Part shown: in pieces, positions 3,846 to 55,448 of the stretch
How the letters are laid out: every line of letters begins with the position of its first letter
Numbering within the stretch: position 1 is the first letter of the stretch
Assembly: GCF_016735595.1 (NCBI RefSeq)
Contig: NZ_JAERRB010000004.1
Coordinates: 558,001 to 622,000, forward strand
Source of the DNA: Chryseolinea lacunae
GTDB lineage: Bacteria; Bacteroidota; Bacteroidia; Cytophagales; Cyclobacteriaceae
Direction of reading: 5' to 3'
Length of the DNA: 64,000 bases
Notes under the pieces: generated by a model
Database searches by the model: none
Told to the model about the DNA's origin: nothing
Seen by the model: only the letters and a program-made list of their open reading frames with translations
Made by a program: the position numbers and the translations under genes

Positions 3846-3874
3846 GCGCCCCGACTCGTCGGGGCGCTTTCATT
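3846..3874 (+). terminator. Intrinsic terminator after the TIM-barrel gene
   Basis: GCGCCCCGAC and GTCGGGGCGC are perfectly complementary around a TC centre and are followed by TTTCATTTT. It sits 27 bp after the stop codon at 3819. Confidence 0.85.
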
Positions 3875-46304: not shown

Positions 46305-47558
46305 TTAGACGAGGTATTCGAACAGGTTCTCGTTCTGATTCACCAGCGTGTAGTTCAGCTTGCGGTCGTTCATCCGTTCAATAAGCGAATTAAAATCGTC
46401 TTTCGATTTCACCTCGATGCCGATCAGGGCGGGGCCGCTTTCCTTGTTGTTTTTCTGGATAAACTCGAAGCGCACAATGTCGTCGTTGGGACCGAGAATG
46501 TCGTTCACAAATTCTTTCAGCGCACCGGGCCGTTGGGCAAAGCGCACAATGAAATAATGTTTGAGGCCTTCATAGAGCAGCGAGCGTTCTTTGATCTCCT
46601 GCATGCGGTCAATGTCGTTGTTGCCGCCGCTGAGCACGCACACCACTTTCTTGCCTTTGATCTGGGCTGCATATTGTTCGAGGGCTGCGATTGATAATGC
46701 GCCGGCAGGTTCGGCCACGATGGCATCTTCATTGTAAAGCTGCAGGATCGTTGACGATACTTTTCCTTCGGGCACCAGCAGCATGTCGCTGAGCACTTCC
46801 TTGCAAAGTTCAAACGTGAGGTCGCCCACTTTCTTAACCGCGGCACCATCCACAAAGCGCTGAATCTTGTCGAGCACCACGGGCTTGCCAGCCGCCAGCG
46901 CTTCCTTCATAGAAGGGGCGCCAAGGGGCTCAACACCCACAATTTTGGTTTGGGGTGAGAACACTTTAAAATACTGACCTACGCCGGCACACAACCCACC
47001 CCCGCCAATGGGCAGAAAGATGTAGTCGATGCCCGACAGGTCGTCGAGAATTTCTTTTCCCACGGTGCCTTGTCCTTCAATCACTTTGATGTGATCGAAC
47101 GGCGGGATAAACACCATGCTGTTTTGTTCGGTAAACTCCAGTGCATGGGCCTGGCATTCGTCGAACGTGTCGCCAATGAGCACGATCTCGATGTTGCTGC
47201 CACCAAACATGCGCACCTGGTTGATCTTTTGTTTGGGCGTGATGGCGGGCATGTAGATGACACCTTTGATGTCGAGATATTTGCAGGCGAACGCCACACC
47301 TTGGGCGTGGTTGCCCGCACTGGCGCACACCACACCGCGTTGGCGTTGCTCGTCGCTCAGGCTTTGAATGAGATTGTAGGCACCCCTCAGTTTATAGGAC
47401 CGCACCACCTGCAGATCTTCACGCTTAATGTAAATCTCGGCCTGAAATTTTTCGGAGAGTTTACGGTGCAGTTGCAGCGGTGTTTTCAAGGCAACGGCTT
47501 TCAGCGCGTAGGCTGCGGCGTTGATGTTGAGGTCGTATGTTTTGGAAGTGGGTGTCAT
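46305..47558 (-). CDS. ilvA: Threonine ammonia-lyase (threonine deaminase)
   Basis: A 417-residue PLP enzyme that turns threonine into 2-oxobutanoate, the first step to isoleucine. The PLP lysine is in VRSYKLRGAYN at about 55-60, the phosphate-binding glycine loop is GGGGLCAG, and CVLSGGNND is also conserved. The C-terminal 90 residues form one ACT-like domain (EFVNDILGPNDDIVRFEFIQ), so this is the single-ACT form regulated by isoleucine or valine. The start at 47558 is chosen because it begins directly with MTPTSKTYDLNINA. It is the last gene of the leftward ilv operon, 106 bp after ilvC with a long inverted repeat between. Confidence 0.94.
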   Translation of the reverse strand: MTPTSKTYDLNINAAAYALKAVALKTPLQLHRKLSEKFQAEIYIKREDLQVVRSYKLRGAYNLIQSLSDEQRQRGVVCASAGNHAQGVAFACKYLDIKGVIYMPAITPKQKINQVRMFGGSNIEIVLIGDTFDECQAHALEFTEQNSMVFIPPFDHIKVIEGQGTVGKEILDDLSGIDYIFLPIGGGGLCAGVGQYFKVFSPQTKIVGVEPLGAPSMKEALAAGKPVVLDKIQRFVDGAAVKKVGDLTFELCKEVLSDMLLVPEGKVSSTILQLYNEDAIVAEPAGALSIAALEQYAAQIKGKKVVCVLSGGNNDIDRMQEIKERSLLYEGLKHYFIVRFAQRPGALKEFVNDILGPNDDIVRFEFIQKNNKESGPALIGIEVKSKDDFNSLIERMNDRKLNYTLVNQNENLFEYLV

Positions 47559-47578
47559 AAAAAAGAGAGAATATAAAA

Positions 47579-47654
47579 CCGCCAAGGCACGGAGGGCGCA
47601 AAGGACGTCGAAAGTTTTTTCGGTCGTGCCTTTGCGCCCTTGCGCCTGTGTGGC
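47579..47654. repeat. Long imperfect inverted repeat between ilvC and ilvA
   Basis: CCGCCAAGGCACGGAGGGCG (47579 onward) is matched in inverted order by CGTGCCTTTGCGCCC and CCTGTGTGGC up to 47654. The GCCAAGGCGCAAAGG-like unit is a common extragenic repeat type. In the ilv mRNA it would form a long hairpin that could lower expression of ilvA relative to the upstream genes. Confidence 0.65.
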
Positions 47655-47664
47655 TTAAGATGAA

Positions 47665-48735
47665 TTAGTTTATCATGCTGGCTTCAACTGTGTTCTTTTC
47701 AGGACGCAGTTGGCGCACGGCAGCACCGGCTTGCCAGAGTTCGCTTTCGCGAAGTTCTTTCAGCTCTTCAGCCAGTTTCTCGCGATAGTCGGGCTTGCTG
47801 CAGGTGTCGATGGTGCGGCGTGCTTCTTCGCCGGTGGCCACGCTCTTATAGAGGTCCTGGAACACAGGGAGTGTAGCGGCTTTAAATTTCTTCTTCCAAT
47901 CCAACGCACCGCGTTGGGCTGTAGTAGAACAGTTGGCATACATCCAGTCCATGCCGTTTTCGGCAACCAGTGGCATAAGGCTTTGTGTCAGCTCTTCAAC
48001 TGTTTCGTTAAACGCTTCAGAAGGCGAGTGGCCGTTGGCGCGCAACACTTCATATTGTGCTTCGAAGATACCGGCAATAGCACCCATCAGTGTGCCGCGT
48101 TCGCCGCTGAGGTCGGAGTATACTTCTTTCTTGAAATCAGTTTCAAACAAATAGCCCGATCCCACACCAATGCCGAGGGCGATCGCTTTTTGCTTTGCGT
48201 TGCCCGATGCATCCTGGAACACGGCGTAGCTCGAGTTGATGCCCTTGCCTTGGAGGAACAAACGGCGAACCGATGTGCCCGAACCTTTGGGAGCAGCCAA
48301 CACTACGTCAACTTCGGCTGGAGGAATGATGCCGGTTTGGTCTTTGAATGTGATGCCAAAGCCGTGCGAGAAATATAAGGTCTTGCCTTTGGTGAGGAAA
48401 GGTTTAATGGTGGGCCACAGGGCGATCTGACCGGCGTCTGAAAGCAGGAACTCGATAACTGTGCCGCGTTGTGCTGCTTCTTCTATTTCGAAAAGTGTTT
48501 TGCCGGGAACCCAGCCGTGTTCAACCGCTTTGTCCCATGTTTTGGAACCTTTGCGTTGACCAACGATCACGTTGAAGCCGTTGTCGCGGAGGTTGAGGGC
48601 TTGTGCAGGACCTTGAACACCGTAGCCGATAATGGCAATTGTTTCGTTCTTCAGTACGTCAAGTGCTTTTTCCATCGGAAATTCTTCACGGGTCACAACC
48701 TCTTCGATCGTTCCGCCAAAATTGATCTTTGCCAT
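47665..48735 (-). CDS. ilvC: Ketol-acid reductoisomerase
   Basis: A 356-residue class I reductoisomerase that converts 2-acetolactate into 2,3-dihydroxyisovalerate, with Mg2+ and NADPH. The dinucleotide fold is IIGYGVQGPAQALNLRDNG, with the selectivity loop GQRKGSKTWDKA. The knotted C-terminal domain has metal-binding acids in SDLSGERGTLMGAIAGIFEA (Asp, Glu). It sits in the operon 77 bp after ilvN. Confidence 0.95.
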   Translation of the reverse strand: MAKINFGGTIEEVVTREEFPMEKALDVLKNETIAIIGYGVQGPAQALNLRDNGFNVIVGQRKGSKTWDKAVEHGWVPGKTLFEIEEAAQRGTVIEFLLSDAGQIALWPTIKPFLTKGKTLYFSHGFGITFKDQTGIIPPAEVDVVLAAPKGSGTSVRRLFLQGKGINSSYAVFQDASGNAKQKAIALGIGVGSGYLFETDFKKEVYSDLSGERGTLMGAIAGIFEAQYEVLRANGHSPSEAFNETVEELTQSLMPLVAENGMDWMYANCSTTAQRGALDWKKKFKAATLPVFQDLYKSVATGEEARRTIDTCSKPDYREKLAEELKELRESELWQAGAAVRQLRPEKNTVEASMIN

Positions 48736-48812: not shown

Positions 48813-49151
48813 TTACACAATCTGTTCGTTGTGCTTGGCACTCAGTTCGCAATAGAGATCGCTGCCCGAGTAGTAGAGTGCATACTCCACTTCAATGAGC
48901 TTCTCCAGCTGATGTTTCACTTTCTCCATCATGTCGGGTGTTGTGAAGAGCAGGAGCACGGCCACGCCCATGCGGAAGTCGTCTTCTACTTCGTGGGCCA
49001 GCAGTTTCTTGATCCTGATTCTCCGACGATTCAGAATGTTAACGATCCGGTTCAGCACCGAAAAGTTATTGTCCGAATGTATTTCAAGGGTGAAGTCCTG
49101 TTTCATGTCAATAAGGTTGGTCTCTATAATGGTGCGGGTGTGTATAGTCAT
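48813..49151 (-). CDS. ilvN: Acetolactate synthase small (regulatory) subunit, short form
   Basis: A 112-residue protein holding one ACT domain (DFTLEIHSDNNFSVLNRIVN, ILNRRRIRIKKL), which binds valine for feedback control of IlvB. The usual small subunit has about 160 residues with a second, C-terminal domain; that part is absent. The start at 49151 lies 5 bp after ilvB; a Met 15 codons later (49106) is an alternative. Confidence 0.85.
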   Translation of the reverse strand: MTIHTRTIIETNLIDMKQDFTLEIHSDNNFSVLNRIVNILNRRRIRIKKLLAHEVEDDFRMGVAVLLLFTTPDMMEKVKHQLEKLIEVEYALYYSGSDLYCELSAKHNEQIV

Positions 49152-49156
49152 AACAA

Positions 49157-50888
49157 TTAGGCTTTAGGGGCTTCGAGCATCACGTCTGCAACGCCGGCGC
49201 CGGCAGGCACCATGGGAAACACGTTGTCTTCTTTTCCAACCACCACTTCCAGGAAGTAGGGGGTTTCTGCAGCCAGCATTTCTTTGATGGCACCTTGCAG
49301 ATCGTCGCGCACTTCCACTTTGCGGGCGGGGATGCTATAGGCTTCGGCCAACTTCACAAAGTCGGGGTTTTGCATTTCGGTGAACGAATAGCGCTTGCCG
49401 TGGAACAGCTGTTGCCACTGGCGCACCATGCCCAGGAAGTTGTTGTTCAACACCACAATCTTTACGGGGATTTTATATTGCATGATGGTGCCCAATTCTT
49501 GCACAGTCATCTGATAGCCACCGTCGCCAATCACGGCAATCACTTGCTTTTCGGGTCTTCCTAATTTTGCTCCCATAGCAGCGGGCAAGGCAAAGCCCAT
49601 GGTGCCGGCACCGCCCGAGGTGACGTTGGTGCGGGGCTCTTTGTATTTGTAGTAGCGCGAGGTGGTCATTTGATGCTGGCCCACGTCGGTTACCACCACC
49701 GCTTCGCCATGGGTGAAGTTGGAGAGGTGGTTGATCACTTCGGCCATGGTGAGCTTTTCGCTTACGGGGTAGAATTCTTTGGTGATGACTTTTTCGTATT
49801 CTTCGTCGTTCAGCTTTTTGAAGCTGGCAATCCACGCGCTGTGGTTTCCGGCGTTGCACTTGCCCACCAACGCGGCGAGGCCTTCTTTGGCATCGGCATG
49901 AATGGCCACATCGGCTTTGATGATCTTGTTGATTTCGGCTTTGTCAATTTCGAGGTGAACCACTTTGGCCTGGCGTGCATATTTGCTCACGTTGCCCGTT
50001 ACGCGGTCGTCGAAGCGCATGCCCACGGCGATCAGCACATCACATTCGTTGGTGTTCACGTTGGGGCCATAGTTGCCGTGCATGCCCAGGTAGCCCACAT
50101 AGTTGGGATGGTCGGAAGGAAACGCGCCGAGGCCGAGCAACGTGCTGGCTACGGGAATTCCCGTTTTCTCCGAAAAAGCGATTAGTTCTTCAGAAGCACC
50201 CGACAACAAAATGCCCTGGCCAGCCAGGATGTAGGGACGCTTGGCACTGTTGATCAATTCGGCAGCTGCTTCCACCTGTGGCATTTGCAGCACAGGCTTT
50301 GGCTTGTAGGTGCGAATGTTTTCACACTTTGTGTACTCCGCCTCTTCAATCATTTCGTTTTGTGCATTCTTGGTGATGTCGACCAACACGGGGCCGGGAC
50401 GGCCGGTGCTGGCGATATAGAACGCGCGGGCCACGGCGGGGGCAATGTCTTTTGCTTCGGTCACCTGAATGTTCCACTTGGTCACGGGAATGGTGGTGTT
50501 CACCACGTCCGTTTCCTGGAAGGCATCGGTTCCCAGCAGGTGCGCAAACACCTGACCGGTGATGCACACCAGGGGAGTGGAGTCGATGAGGGCATCGGCC
50601 AAACCGGTCACCAGGTTGGTGGCGCCTGGGCCCGAGGTGGCAAACACCACACCGGTTCTTCCCGACACACGGGCAAAACCTTGTGCCGCATGAATGGCCC
50701 CTTGCTCGTGACGCACCAGAATGTGGTTGAGTCTGTCGGCAAAATGATAGAGCGCATCATACACGGGCATGATGGCCCCGCCGGGATAGCCGAAGATCAC
50801 ATCCACGCCTTCTTCCACGAGGCTGCGAAGCAACACTTCGGAGCCGGTTATCTTCTGTTTCGCCGGCGTGTCAACGCCCGCGGTGGGT

Positions 50889-50914
<26 letters not shown>
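49157..50914 (-). CDS. ilvB: Acetolactate synthase large subunit
   Basis: A 585-residue thiamine-diphosphate enzyme making 2-acetolactate from pyruvate, or acetohydroxybutyrate with 2-oxobutanoate. The catalytic Glu is in [19 protein letters not shown] (about 65), and the ThDP fold is at [14 protein letters not shown] and [16 protein letters not shown]-binding segments such as MLGMHGNYG are also in place. It overlaps ilvD by 26 bp (50889-50914), so translation is coupled. Confidence 0.95.
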
Positions 50915-52568
<1,654 letters not shown>

Positions 52569-52666: not shown

Positions 52667-53554
52667 TTAGATGATGACGTAGCTGAAGGACTTTTCGAGC
52701 ACCTGGCACTTGTAGGCTTCCTGAACCGTGGCGCCCAGGCTTTCATACCATTCTTTTTTGAAGGGCTTGGCGTCGATCGATTCAATGCCGGCAATTTCGG
52801 CGGCAGTGCCACACAGGAATGCGCTGTCGGCGCTATCGAGTTCTTCGGGTTTGATAGGTCTTTCTTTCACGGGAATGTCGAGCTCGCGGCAAATGTTGAT
52901 CACGGTTTGACGTGTGATGCCGGGCAGGATGTGGCCCAGGGGTGGCGTGTAGAGCACACCGTTTTTTTCGATGAAGATGTTGGCGCCGGGCGCTTCGGCC
53001 ACGTTGCCTTCCATGTCAAGCATCAGGGCTTCGTCGTAGCCTCTCACCTTGGCTTCGCTGGTGGCGAGGATCGAGTTGACATAGTGGCCGGTCACCTTCG
53101 CTTCCATTTTCAGGGAGTTGGGGTTGGGGCGCTGATAGGACGACACACAGAGCTTCAGTTGTTTGTCGCCATGATATTTGTCCCACTCCCAGGCACACAT
53201 CATCAGAAACACATCCTGAGGTTGTGTGAGGGTCATGTTGGGGCCGCAATACACGAGGGGGCGGATGTAGCTGTCCGAAAGGTTGTTTCGTTCGAGGAGC
53301 TGGTAGGCGATCTGGGTCAGCTCTTCGGTTTCGTACTGGAAGGGGATGCCCACCAGTGCGCAGCTTTTCCGGAGACGTTCGAAGTGCTCATAGGCCTTGA
53401 AGATCTTCGTTCCGTTTTGTGTCTGGTAAGCCCGGATGCCTTCAAACGCTCCGAAGCCATAGTGTAGCGTCTGGCTGTAGAGGTCAGTATGCGCATCAAC
53501 CGCTTTAATGAACTTACCATTCAAAAAAAGGATCGTCTCTTTCGTGTAGTACAT
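52667..53554 (-). CDS. ilvE: Branched-chain amino acid aminotransferase
   Basis: A 295-residue fold-type IV PLP aminotransferase that performs the last step to valine, leucine and isoleucine. The N-terminal GFGAFEGIRAYQTQNG, the lysine region AKVTGHYVNSILATSEAKVR, GYDEALMLD and the phosphate loop EAPGANIFIEKNGVLYTPPL are typical. Lys in AKVTGHY is the PLP residue. It is the first gene of the ilv operon and follows the leader peptide and terminator (53579-53764). Confidence 0.94.
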   Translation of the reverse strand: MYYTKETILFLNGKFIKAVDAHTDLYSQTLHYGFGAFEGIRAYQTQNGTKIFKAYEHFERLRKSCALVGIPFQYETEELTQIAYQLLERNNLSDSYIRPLVYCGPNMTLTQPQDVFLMMCAWEWDKYHGDKQLKLCVSSYQRPNPNSLKMEAKVTGHYVNSILATSEAKVRGYDEALMLDMEGNVAEAPGANIFIEKNGVLYTPPLGHILPGITRQTVINICRELDIPVKERPIKPEELDSADSAFLCGTAAEIAGIESIDAKPFKKEWYESLGATVQEAYKCQVLEKSFSYVII

Positions 53555-53578
53555 ATAACAATTGTTAGTTTGTTTTAG

Positions 53579-53619
53579 CCTATATAAAACAAAACCGCCC
53601 CGAGGCTATCGGGGCGGTT
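53579..53619 (-). terminator. Leader terminator of the ilv operon (attenuator)
   Basis: AACCGCCCCGA and TCGGGGCGGTT form a perfect 11-bp stem with a 5-nt loop; TTTTGTTTTATATA follows in the direction of transcription. It lies 22 bp after the leader peptide stop and 38 bp before the ilvE start codon, so it must be read through to express the operon. The upstream bases GGGGCG (plus-strand 53654-53659, inside the leader codons) can pair with its first arm as an antiterminator. Confidence 0.88.
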
Positions 53620-53641
53620 CGTGAAGTTTTTCGTTATAACG

Positions 53642-53764
53642 CTATATCACCATCGCCCCTGCGGGTTTGAGAATCACGACCACGACTAGCACAAGCACAG
53701 ACAGCACGTTCATGAGCCCGTTGGGGATCATTTTGCGTTCTGCTGTTTGGATTGTTTTCAACAT
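53642..53764 (-). CDS. ilv leader peptide (attenuation control)
   Basis: A 40-codon open frame starting at ATG 53764 and ending in TAG. Codons 20-32 read Val-Leu-Ser-Val-Leu-Val-Leu-Val-Val-Val-Val-Ile-Leu, twelve of thirteen being Val, Leu or Ile. Such a run just before a terminator and the ilv genes is the signature of ribosome-mediated attenuation. Codons 36-37 (GGG GCG) carry the antiterminator sequence: a ribosome waiting at the Val/Leu/Ile run leaves it free, whereas one that reaches the stop covers it and lets the terminator form. The peptide itself needs no further function. It is too short to be found by normal gene calling. Confidence 0.85.
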   Translation of the reverse strand: MLKTIQTAERKMIPNGLMNVLSVLVLVVVVILKPAGAMVI

Positions 53765-54067
53765 ATAATTTTGTGCGAGTACAATTGTCACAAATTATCG
53801 AGTAACGTTCAAGTGATTTGACGAAAATATTTGAAATTTCATCAAATAACGAATGTTAGCTACTGCATACGGGTGTTAGTTAAGCGAGGCTACACGCCTT
53901 CGATGTCACTGATTTTTGCTCTGTAAACACACCGTTTTTCTAAACAAAAATCGTGAACACAACGGCTTCATTTTTTTCTTCGTTTCCGAAACACACATCA
54001 TTCAAAATGATGAAGCCATGCACTGAATTTCAGCATCAAAAAAATGAACGTCGTGAGCATCTATACG
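53765..54067. other. AT-rich region upstream of the ilv leader
   Basis: This stretch should hold the ilv promoter. TTG-N12-TAATTTG near 53795 resembles promoter elements but with wrong spacing, so no promoter is claimed. No protein frame of quality is present. Confidence 0.4.
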
Positions 54068-54074
54068 CAAACAC

Positions 54075-54099
54075 AAAGGCCTCCGTTGTGGAGGCCTTT
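54075..54099 (-). terminator. Terminator of the aminotransferase gene
   Basis: AAAGGCCTCC and GGAGGCCTTT form a perfect 10-bp stem around GTTGT. On the minus strand TTTGTGTTTG follows. It separates the aminotransferase gene from the ilv leader region. Confidence 0.72.
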
Positions 54100-54128: not shown

Positions 54129-55448
54129 TTATTTCAAATACTCCACAATGGCATCGCGCACACTGGTGAACGTGCGAATCAAAATCTCTTCATCTTCCTC
54201 CAGCAACGTGACCCGGAAACCTTGCAGCTCCGAAGCAAACGAAGAGATGGGCACCACGCAAACACCTTTCGCGGCCAGCAGGTAATACACAAAACGTTTG
54301 TCGAGGGCGATGTCGTGTCGTGGCGATCCGTCGGGGTTGTTCACCCAGCCTTCTACCAGCGATTTGATGTTGGCGTCGGCAATGGCCAGCGACTGTGTGG
54401 GCTTCAGGCTGCCTTCGCGGAAAATGATGGTGTTATAGAACGCACCAAACGTTTCGTTGAACGTGAGCTGGGGCACTGTGCCCAGAATGTCGGATATGAT
54501 CTTGCTGCGACGGCCAATGTTGGCGTTGGTTTGTTCGCGATAGTGTTTGAAGCGCGCATCGCCGAATATTTTCGGAATGGCCAGCTGGGGCAACTTGGTG
54601 GAGCACACCTCGATCATCTTGGCATTGTCGAGCGCCTGGCAGAAGCGGTTAAAGTCTTCGTCTTTGTCGCGGTTGTAGTATTCCATCCAGCCGCAGCGCG
54701 AGCCGGGCCAGGGCAATTCTTTCGAGATGCCCTTCATGGAAATGCCCGGCACATCGCCGATAATCTCCGCCAGCGCATGGGCGCGCGCGCCGTTGTAGGT
54801 GATGTTGATATAGATTTCGTCGGCCAGCAAAAAGAGGTTGAACTCTTTGGCAATGGCCACAATGCGTTGCAGAATTTCCAACGGATAGACCATGCCCGTT
54901 GGGTTGTCGGGGTTGATGATGAGGATACCCACCACGTTGGGATTGTATTTCACCTTGTTGTAGAGATCGTCCAGGTCTGGATACCACTTGTTGTTGGGAT
55001 CGAGCTTGTAGGTGAGGGGTTCGTGCGCAGCGTGTGCCGCCTCGGCGCTGGAGTGCGTGGAGTAGGCCGGCGTGGGCCCGATGACCCTCGACGTGCGCGA
55101 TATGAACTGATAGGCTTTCGAAATGGCATCGCCAAGACCGTTGAAGAAACAGATGTCTTCGGCCGTGATCTGCACGCCGTTCATGGCGTTTGTTTGGCGC
55201 GCCAGAAACTCGCGTGTTTCCAGCATGCCCTTTGACGGACAATAGCTGTAGGTGTCGTCCTGCTTCATGAGGTCGGCAATGATGTCTTTGATCCACTGCG
55301 GAAGTTTGTGGTGCTTCTGAATGGGATCGCCGATGTTTTCCCACGAAATGGCCACGCCCAGCTTCTTTAACAGATCGGCTTTCTTCACAATCTCGCGGAT
55401 CTCGTAGCTAAGCTCTTTAGCCCCTTCGCTCAATAACTTTTGTCGCAT
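54129..55448 (-). CDS. Class I/II pyridoxal-phosphate aminotransferase
   Basis: A 439-residue fold-type I aminotransferase. The PLP lysine lies in SMKGISKELPWPGSRCGWME, and the cofactor-contacting residues are in INPDNPTGMVYP and LLADEIYINITYNG. Residue order matches the alanine/aspartate-type subgroup seen in amino acid metabolism; the exact amino acid is not readable. It is transcribed leftward, ahead of the ilv operon but ended by its own terminator. Confidence 0.9.
   Translation of the reverse strand: MRQKLLSEGAKELSYEIREIVKKADLLKKLGVAISWENIGDPIQKHHKLPQWIKDIIADLMKQDDTYSYCPSKGMLETREFLARQTNAMNGVQITAEDICFFNGLGDAISKAYQFISRTSRVIGPTPAYSTHSSAEAAHAAHEPLTYKLDPNNKWYPDLDDLYNKVKYNPNVVGILIINPDNPTGMVYPLEILQRIVAIAKEFNLFLLADEIYINITYNGARAHALAEIIGDVPGISMKGISKELPWPGSRCGWMEYYNRDKDEDFNRFCQALDNAKMIEVCSTKLPQLAIPKIFGDARFKHYREQTNANIGRRSKIISDILGTVPQLTFNETFGAFYNTIIFREGSLKPTQSLAIADANIKSLVEGWVNNPDGSPRHDIALDKRFVYYLLAAKGVCVVPISSFASELQGFRVTLLEEDEEILIRTFTSVRDAIVEYLK

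Follow-up and report, generated by a model that had tools for sequence, protein, structure and literature searches.

A probable ribosome-mediated attenuator upstream of ilvEDBNCA in Chryseolinea lacunae and a palindromic candidate operator at a fixed distance from its terminator

How is transcription of the branched-chain amino acid operon ilvEDBNCA set in Chryseolinea lacunae? The question is raised by a short frame dense in valine, leucine, and isoleucine codons, followed by a hairpin, that stands before the operon in the window, i.e., the whole 64,000-nucleotide stretch of DNA analyzed here. The operon and its leader lie on the minus strand, to which their coordinates below refer. The first structural gene, ilvE (branched-chain aminotransferase; 52667..53554), encodes a class IV domain (Pfam PF01063) and is named from its operon context, as is ilvB (acetolactate synthase large subunit; 49157..50914; Pfam TPP_enzyme N/M/C). 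Pfam matches identified ilvD (dihydroxy-acid dehydratase; 50889..52568; ILVD_EDD_N and ILV_EDD_C), ilvC (ketol-acid reductoisomerase; 47665..48735; KARI_N/KARI_C), and ilvA (threonine dehydratase; 46305..47585; PALP and Thr_dehydrat_C). The gene at 48813..49151, whose product had no Pfam match at 1e-8, is probably ilvN (acetolactate synthase small subunit) by its position. IlvE is 95% identical to that of the same-genus relative Chryseolinea serpens DSM 24574 (G002; Cytophagales, NCBI).

The leader frame and its two hairpins

The leader peptide frame (53642..53764) runs from ATG 53764 to TAG 53644-53642 and encodes the 40-residue product MLKTIQTAERKMIPNGLMNVLSVLVLVVVVILKPAGAMVI, in which codons 20-32 read VLSVLVLVVVVIL, with Val, Leu, or Ile at 12 of the 13. 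The frame can be extended upstream to GTG 53791, but every one of the 13 aligned sequences, i.e., the window and 12 relatives, keeps the ATG at 53764. The trinucleotide TTG at 53810..53812, a predicted candidate for the −33 element of Bacteroidota promoters, lies within a CTTGAA that is invariant in the same 13 sequences. The candidate −7 element GACAATTG (53782..53789), also a prediction, is a weak match to the consensus TANNTTTG and contains an ATTGTA that is invariant in the alignment; the consensus was taken from the Flavobacterium psychrophilum transcriptome paper (PMC9723704). With these elements, the transcription start would fall approximately 10-14 nt before the leader ATG. Of 83 loci scanned, 7 had an exact TANNTTTG box in the 40 nt preceding the leader, where approximately 1.4 would be expected, and in none did such a box lie between the terminator and ilvE.

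Past the stop codon lies an intrinsic terminator hairpin (53592..53620; −22.3 kcal/mol), composed of 12 pairs, 11 of them Watson-Crick and one a closing G.U, with a loop of 5 nt. It is followed by the U-tract TTTTGTTTTA (53585..53594), found in identical form in 40 of 55 operator-bearing loci (see below). A pattern scan for terminators lists 53620-53592, but with 2 sites found in 2 kb against an expectation of 2.4, it carries no weight by itself. The 5′ arm of the terminator is also used by an antiterminator: GGGGCG in codons 36-37 (53654..53659) is complementary to CGCCCC at 53616-53611, and a second helix joins GTGA (53647..53650) to UCAC (53621..53624). In 2 of the 13 sequences, both bases of the first pair of this second helix have changed, giving A-U in place of G-C. 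The initial annotation had described the 40-codon frame with twelve Val, Leu, or Ile residues in codons 20-32, an 11-bp terminator with a T run between leader and ilvE, and the match of GGGGCG to the first terminator arm; all three were borne out when the frame and the pairs were read again, the 11 bp being the Watson-Crick pairs. Elsewhere in the window, a GC-rich hairpin with a T-rich tail was seen by eye at 54075-54099 on the minus strand, directly after the aminotransferase gene 54129-55448; it is probably the terminator of that gene and is absent from the list of the pattern scan.

Computed folding of the nascent RNA reveals the competition between the two structures. When the RNA ends before the 3′ arm, the antiterminator forms with a probability of 0.99-1.00 (−18.2 kcal/mol); as the 3′ arm emerges, its probability falls from 1.00 to 0.84, after which the terminator takes over with a probability of 0.89-1.00. 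With a ribosome on the stop codon, the terminator is the sole option that can fold. Without a ribosome, it is still favored at equilibrium (P 0.99), and antitermination must therefore be kinetic.

We propose that a ribosome finishing the leader would cover GGGGCG, the terminator would then form, and transcription would stop near 53586. Should charged Val-, Leu-, or Ile-tRNA be in short supply, the ribosome would wait in codons 20-32 with its front edge short of GGGGCG, and this free segment, together with GUGA, would pair with the 5′ arm of the terminator, letting transcription continue into ilvE.

Conservation, covariation, and ribosome geometry

Sequences of up to 600 nt upstream of ilvE were collected from 30 loci (115 of 118 searched genomes matched) and from the best 80 of 587 matches, giving 110 stretches, 103 of them distinct. 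A detector requiring an ATG-started frame in which 12 residues include at least 7 Val, Leu, or Ile, with a terminator no more than 75 nt away, was positive in 83 of the 103 distinct stretches, compared to none of 103 reverse strands and none of 2,060 dinucleotide shuffles. Among the 20 stretches missed, 7 were read by eye and several of these retain the leader (e.g., L143 and L154), while in L149 the Val/Leu/Ile run is seemingly lost and the terminator and operator are retained. The detector was also positive in 42 of 80 regions upstream of ilvD, which had been picked among the top matches listed for a draw across the phylum, in which 212 of 296 genomes had a match; two of these 42, L042 and L062, resemble pieces of longer genes, and regions L031-L033 repeat genomes or loci of the ilvE set. 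On 1.8-kb stretches, the detector gives a few false matches inside long genes (by eye, L042, L062, and the first frame of L061); those of up to 52 amino acids were left in the arm-swap test below, where they lower its effect. The leader thus occurs far outside the genus, for the most part inside the class. In eight relatives, the detector found two leader-terminator units in series before ilv genes (L014, L028, L043, L058, L076, L086, L193, and L195; L061 was discounted by eye), and in L193 and L195 the two leaders of the tandem are near copies.

Among 78 non-redundant leaders, Ile is the most abundant of the three residues (425, compared to 273 Leu and 261 Val); all three are present in 63 leaders, and Leu is absent after the first residue in 14. 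We then compared the last eight codons and the following nucleotides of these 78 leaders with the 5′ arms of their terminators. Pairing with the leader's own terminator arm averaged −11.5 kcal/mol versus −8.1 kcal/mol for swapped arms; none of 5,000 arm-swap permutations (mean, −8.2; standard deviation, 0.27) reached the own-arm average, and a control segment, the 42 nt just upstream of the leader end, paired with the terminator arm at only −4.0 kcal/mol. Only 8 tails had their own arm ranked first among the 78, and 33 had it in the best tenth, a modest ranking that we put down to arm types common to relatives. The arm pairs differ by genus, e.g., GGGGCG/CGCCCC, GGATTGG/CCAATCC, AGAGATGG/CCATCTCT, and GGGGTGAG/CTCACCCC. 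In the 13 aligned sequences, 97.6% of antiterminator pair cells are paired, a value reached by none of 500 shuffles and above that of every slid version. Two of the five pair-count measures were not striking: both-side changes at two pairs were reached by 18 of 500 shuffles, and five further pair types by 196 of 500. Altogether, the arm-swap test, nascent folding, and pair counts identify, by computation, a mutually exclusive antiterminator.

Counted from the initial base of the run's final codon, the pairing arm starts a median of 13 nt further on, so that the run ends about one ribosome footprint before the arm. Assuming that the front edge of the ribosome reaches +12 relative to the A-site codon, the arm stays free at 75% or more of the run codons in all 67 leaders whose pairing is −7 kcal/mol or better; in the window, a ribosome at the stop codon would cover GGGGCG. 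By geometry in these 67 of 67 leaders, the position of the ribosome on the regulatory codons would decide which hairpin forms.

The initial annotation had called for comparison with relatives, and in this comparison the frame, the Val/Leu/Ile run, and the terminator are kept while the sequence changes; the compensatory stem changes that it had asked for are found in the covariation of leader end and terminator arm, by the arm-swap test and the pair counts. Its further statement that the design needs only two competing pairings is not established, given that the end of the leader shows a tendency to pair with coding sequence upstream of it as well (mean P 0.69; mean z 0.82), above all 20 shuffles in 20 of 67 leaders where approximately 3 are expected.

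These data bear on two other explanations of the leader. One holds that the hairpin is a mere terminator or processing signal and that the Val, Leu, and Ile codons encode a chance hydrophobic peptide, with no ribosome-mediated control. Dominance of the terminator at equilibrium would suit this reading, but the absence of detector matches from both controls, the arm-swap result, the fit of the run-to-arm distance to a ribosome footprint, and the retention of the run through sequence change all argue against it, and we consider it very improbable. The other is that a T-box or riboswitch senses the tRNA or amino acid directly and the frame is incidental. T-boxes control ilv operons in Firmicutes, which gives the idea its appeal; in the leader, however, no Rfam family reached the gathering score, and a covariance-model scan of the whole window (cmscan, gathering threshold) returned only four tRNAs, with no T-box, riboswitch, or RF01692. 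This explanation can be given hardly any weight.

We thus regard the ilvEDBNCA leader as, in all likelihood, a ribosome-mediated transcription attenuator. What it works like is also what it is, inasmuch as the codon run, the terminator, the computed antiterminator, and the ribosome geometry are defining features of this kind; the behavior of the ribosome and the control by tRNA charging are what we infer from that anatomy.

The fixed distance between terminator and palindrome

The initial annotation had called the attenuation system complete; this overlooked copies of a palindrome on both sides of the attenuator and the fixed distance that separates one of them from the terminator. The palindrome, with the consensus CTAACANNTGTTAG, lies upstream of the promoter region and again between the terminator and ilvE. 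The upstream candidate operator CTAACATTCGTTA (53847..53859; genome match C24:611847-611859) has core letters that are invariant in the 13 sequences, and a degenerate copy, CTAACACCCGTATG (53866..53879; score, 9/12), lies 20 bp before it, with comparable second upstream copies at the same place in several aligned relatives. The downstream candidate operator CTAACAATTGTTA (53556..53568; genome match C24:611556-611568) starts 26 bp past the last G-C pair of the terminator (G53595).

In this genome, exact CTAACANNNGTTA has 6 matches at five places, compared to 23 for the backwards control, and all six lie at ilvE, before leuC-leuD-leuB, or before a second class IV aminotransferase gene. The leuC product belongs to the aconitase family (Pfam), and we assume the names leuD and leuB as well as a place for the second aminotransferase in the branched-chain pathway. 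The exact palindrome precedes the second aminotransferase gene in 5 of 10 genomes searched, with differing central bases. At ilvE, both copies match at least 9 of 12 letters in 52 of 81 loci, compared to 2 of 1,620 mononucleotide shuffles, and the two copies lie 253-310 bp apart. Looser patterns add three more places in this genome: within a protease-like gene, approximately 190 bp before a presumably BatD-like gene (a relative's copy of which gave no match in an NCBIfam search), and between other open reading frames. Rare, conserved, and placed at the genes of one pathway, with other places added by relaxed patterns, the palindrome has the character of a transcription-factor operator as judged from sequence.

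In relatives, the palindrome or its relaxed form was also observed before a nitrite/sulfite-reductase-like gene in two species and before the BatD-like gene in three (L206, L267, L215, L265, and L272). Because of the copies near these genes and elsewhere, the regulon may be wider, and a putative regulator of the palindrome may control more than branched-chain synthesis. One relative (L212/L220) carries the palindrome between a TetR-family-like gene and paaA, possibly a similar site of a different regulator. Reading of the genes adjoining the operator copies yielded no candidate for the regulator.

To describe the spacing, we measured the distance from the first T after the stem to the operator copy nearest ilvE. 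It could be measured in the 57 of 103 ilvE stretches that have a T-run no more than 34 nt ahead of the site; 51 of them gave 26 bp and the remaining 6 gave 25 bp. The operator-bearing loci form one clade, such that these 57 measurements are not independent events. In L149, the site near ilvE falls outside the T-run pattern, and the distance is 26 by eye; two additional pairs of site and T-run, at 17 and 18 bp, involve further sites within stretches that the count already includes. Compared to this, the distance from operator to ilvE ATG varies from 14 to 33 (standard deviation, 5.0; n = 51 two-copy loci, with one outlier of more than 200 dropped), and that from stop codon to hairpin ranges from 20 to 30 (standard deviation, 2.3; 52 two-copy loci). 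The spacer itself has diverged: of the 56 distinct spacers from ilvE and leuC, 49 have a length of 26 and 7 a length of 25, and within the 26-long group positions 11-21 are only 38% identical on average, with C23 and A26 never changing. For approximately half of the letters in the operator, the lack of variation follows from the search pattern itself.

At leuC, this spacing is found again. Both operator copies are present there at 9.5 of 12 or better in the 11 loci of closest sequence among 30, and the other 19 do not have both at that score. Measured by hairpin, the distance in these 11 loci is 26 in 8, 27 in 2, and 23 in 1; measured by T-run, possible in 8 of the 30, it is 26 in 7 and 25 in 1, with hairpins of different sequence. 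At a lowered threshold, the detector found no Val/Leu/Ile leader in any of the 30 leuC stretches, and the small frames of the 11 loci, compared by eye, disagree with each other and yield no agreed leader. A small hairpin is seen between leuC promoter region and terminator in the leuC leader of this genome (L118:3500-3770) and in L204, L207, L222, and L223; by eye, its arms vary, e.g., ATCTC/GAGAT and CTCCC/GGGAG.

At intrinsic terminators, the transcript is released 7-9 nt beyond the stem, and RNA polymerase that meets a roadblock halts approximately 14-15 bp before the bound site. The 15 bp that separate 53587 from the conserved CAAA at 53572 would fit a roadblock of polymerase at the release point. 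We therefore put forward, as a tentative second layer that may well prove wrong, a DNA-binding branched-chain regulator that would occupy both palindromes, the one ahead of the promoter and the one 26 bp after the terminator; bound to the downstream copy, the protein would abut the leading edge of an RNA polymerase positioned in the U-tract, hold it there, and favor release. In its general form, the idea is that of an operator-gated terminator, in which a regulator 26 bp past the hairpin would stall polymerase where release occurs and so determine how efficiently transcription terminates. Stacked at ilvE on the leader-peptide attenuator, this would place two independent sensors on one hairpin, and at leuC of the same clade it would act alone, with no recognizable leader peptide; so extended, the idea is conceivable though on balance unlikely.

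The main competing explanation is that both palindromes form an ordinary operator pair, acting by looping or steric block, and that the 26 bp are inherited and play no role in termination. The origin of all loci in one clade speaks for it, and a separation of 253-310 bp suits a loop. Helical phasing of the spacing between upstream and downstream copies was nevertheless not found (R 0.23 at 10.5 bp; n = 52), and the distance holds at 25-26 bp in 57 of 57 measurable stretches despite a diverged spacer, while the distances to the ATG and to the upstream copy vary; its recurrence at leuC with different hairpin sequences is likewise unexpected from a simple operator pair. We give this explanation a substantial chance, somewhat short of even.

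Three further readings of the region were rejected. An interrupted U-tract might have marked operator dependence, given that the longest T-run is 4 in operator loci (6 or more in 0 of 47) versus 6 or more in 57 of 64 other leaders, but operator-less hairpins of the same genome share it (window 3846-3867; L274 and L280) and the contrast is that of one clade. Pairing of the U-tract RNA with ACAAA before the operator, seen by eye in the window, is lost where the tract is TTTCATTTT. A role of the downstream palindrome as a translation element was rejected because its distance from the start codon varies (14-33 nt at ilvE and 13-64 nt at leuC).

Comparison with known systems

Ribosome-mediated attenuators of Enterobacteria include ilvL of ilvGMEDA, leuL, and trpL. 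The Chryseolinea leader shares with them a frame rich in codons for the end product, a terminator before the first gene, an alternative antiterminator, and an arm inside the leader frame; unlike in these systems, the arm in the last codons forms the antiterminator itself, and a protecting 1:2 hairpin is not clearly established. Vitreschak et al. (2004) reportedly already predicted some attenuators in Bacteroidetes. The Bacteroid-trp motif, probably a trp leader, has no covariance-model match in the window. This motif (RF01692) was described as a predicted cis-regulatory RNA in Bacteroidetes (PMC2864571). The initial annotation had held that such leaders are little described in Bacteroidota, which understates the record: the transcriptome of F. 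psychrophilum provided "strong clues" for attenuation leaders upstream of amino acid operons (PMC9723704). Those leaders resemble the present one in belonging to the same phylum and in placing a leader peptide before an amino acid biosynthesis operon; the account in the main-text part of that paper differs in giving no ilv leader, codon-arm covariation, or operator (PMC9723704). Attenuators of ilv operons in Corynebacterium, Mycobacterium, and Streptomyces also combine a Val/Leu/Ile leader frame with a terminator before the operon (PMC1262725, PMC11857589), but in the 2005 paper on the actinobacterial case the frame overlaps the terminator, unlike in Chryseolinea, and the mode of regulation is called unclear (PMC1262725). 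The phrase "tandem attenuators" was found in the sources searched only for Mg2+ transporters (PMC4974804).

The attenuator is thus of a known kind, already hinted at in Bacteroidota; our literature searches, which used terms other than the name Cytophagales, returned no description of an ilv leader in that order. By comparison, the rigid coupling of a terminator to a DNA operator is apparently new, as a search covering few subscription journals found no operator described at a fixed distance from an intrinsic terminator. The comparisons are evidence that control of branched-chain synthesis by ribosome-mediated attenuation extends widely across Bacteroidota, and the second feature offers a rigid, testable geometry linking a DNA operator to an RNA terminator.

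For the proposed second layer, the closest parallel is CodY, which controls branched-chain genes of Bacillus subtilis by roadblock. Both would employ a branched-chain regulator that blocks polymerase downstream of the promoter; the CodY site is not known to lie at a fixed distance from an intrinsic terminator, and its motif differs. If the roadblock holds true in Chryseolinea, a DNA-binding protein would adjust the output of an intrinsic terminator by holding polymerase on the U-tract, and promoter-type and attenuator-type control would be joined in a way not found in the literature searched.
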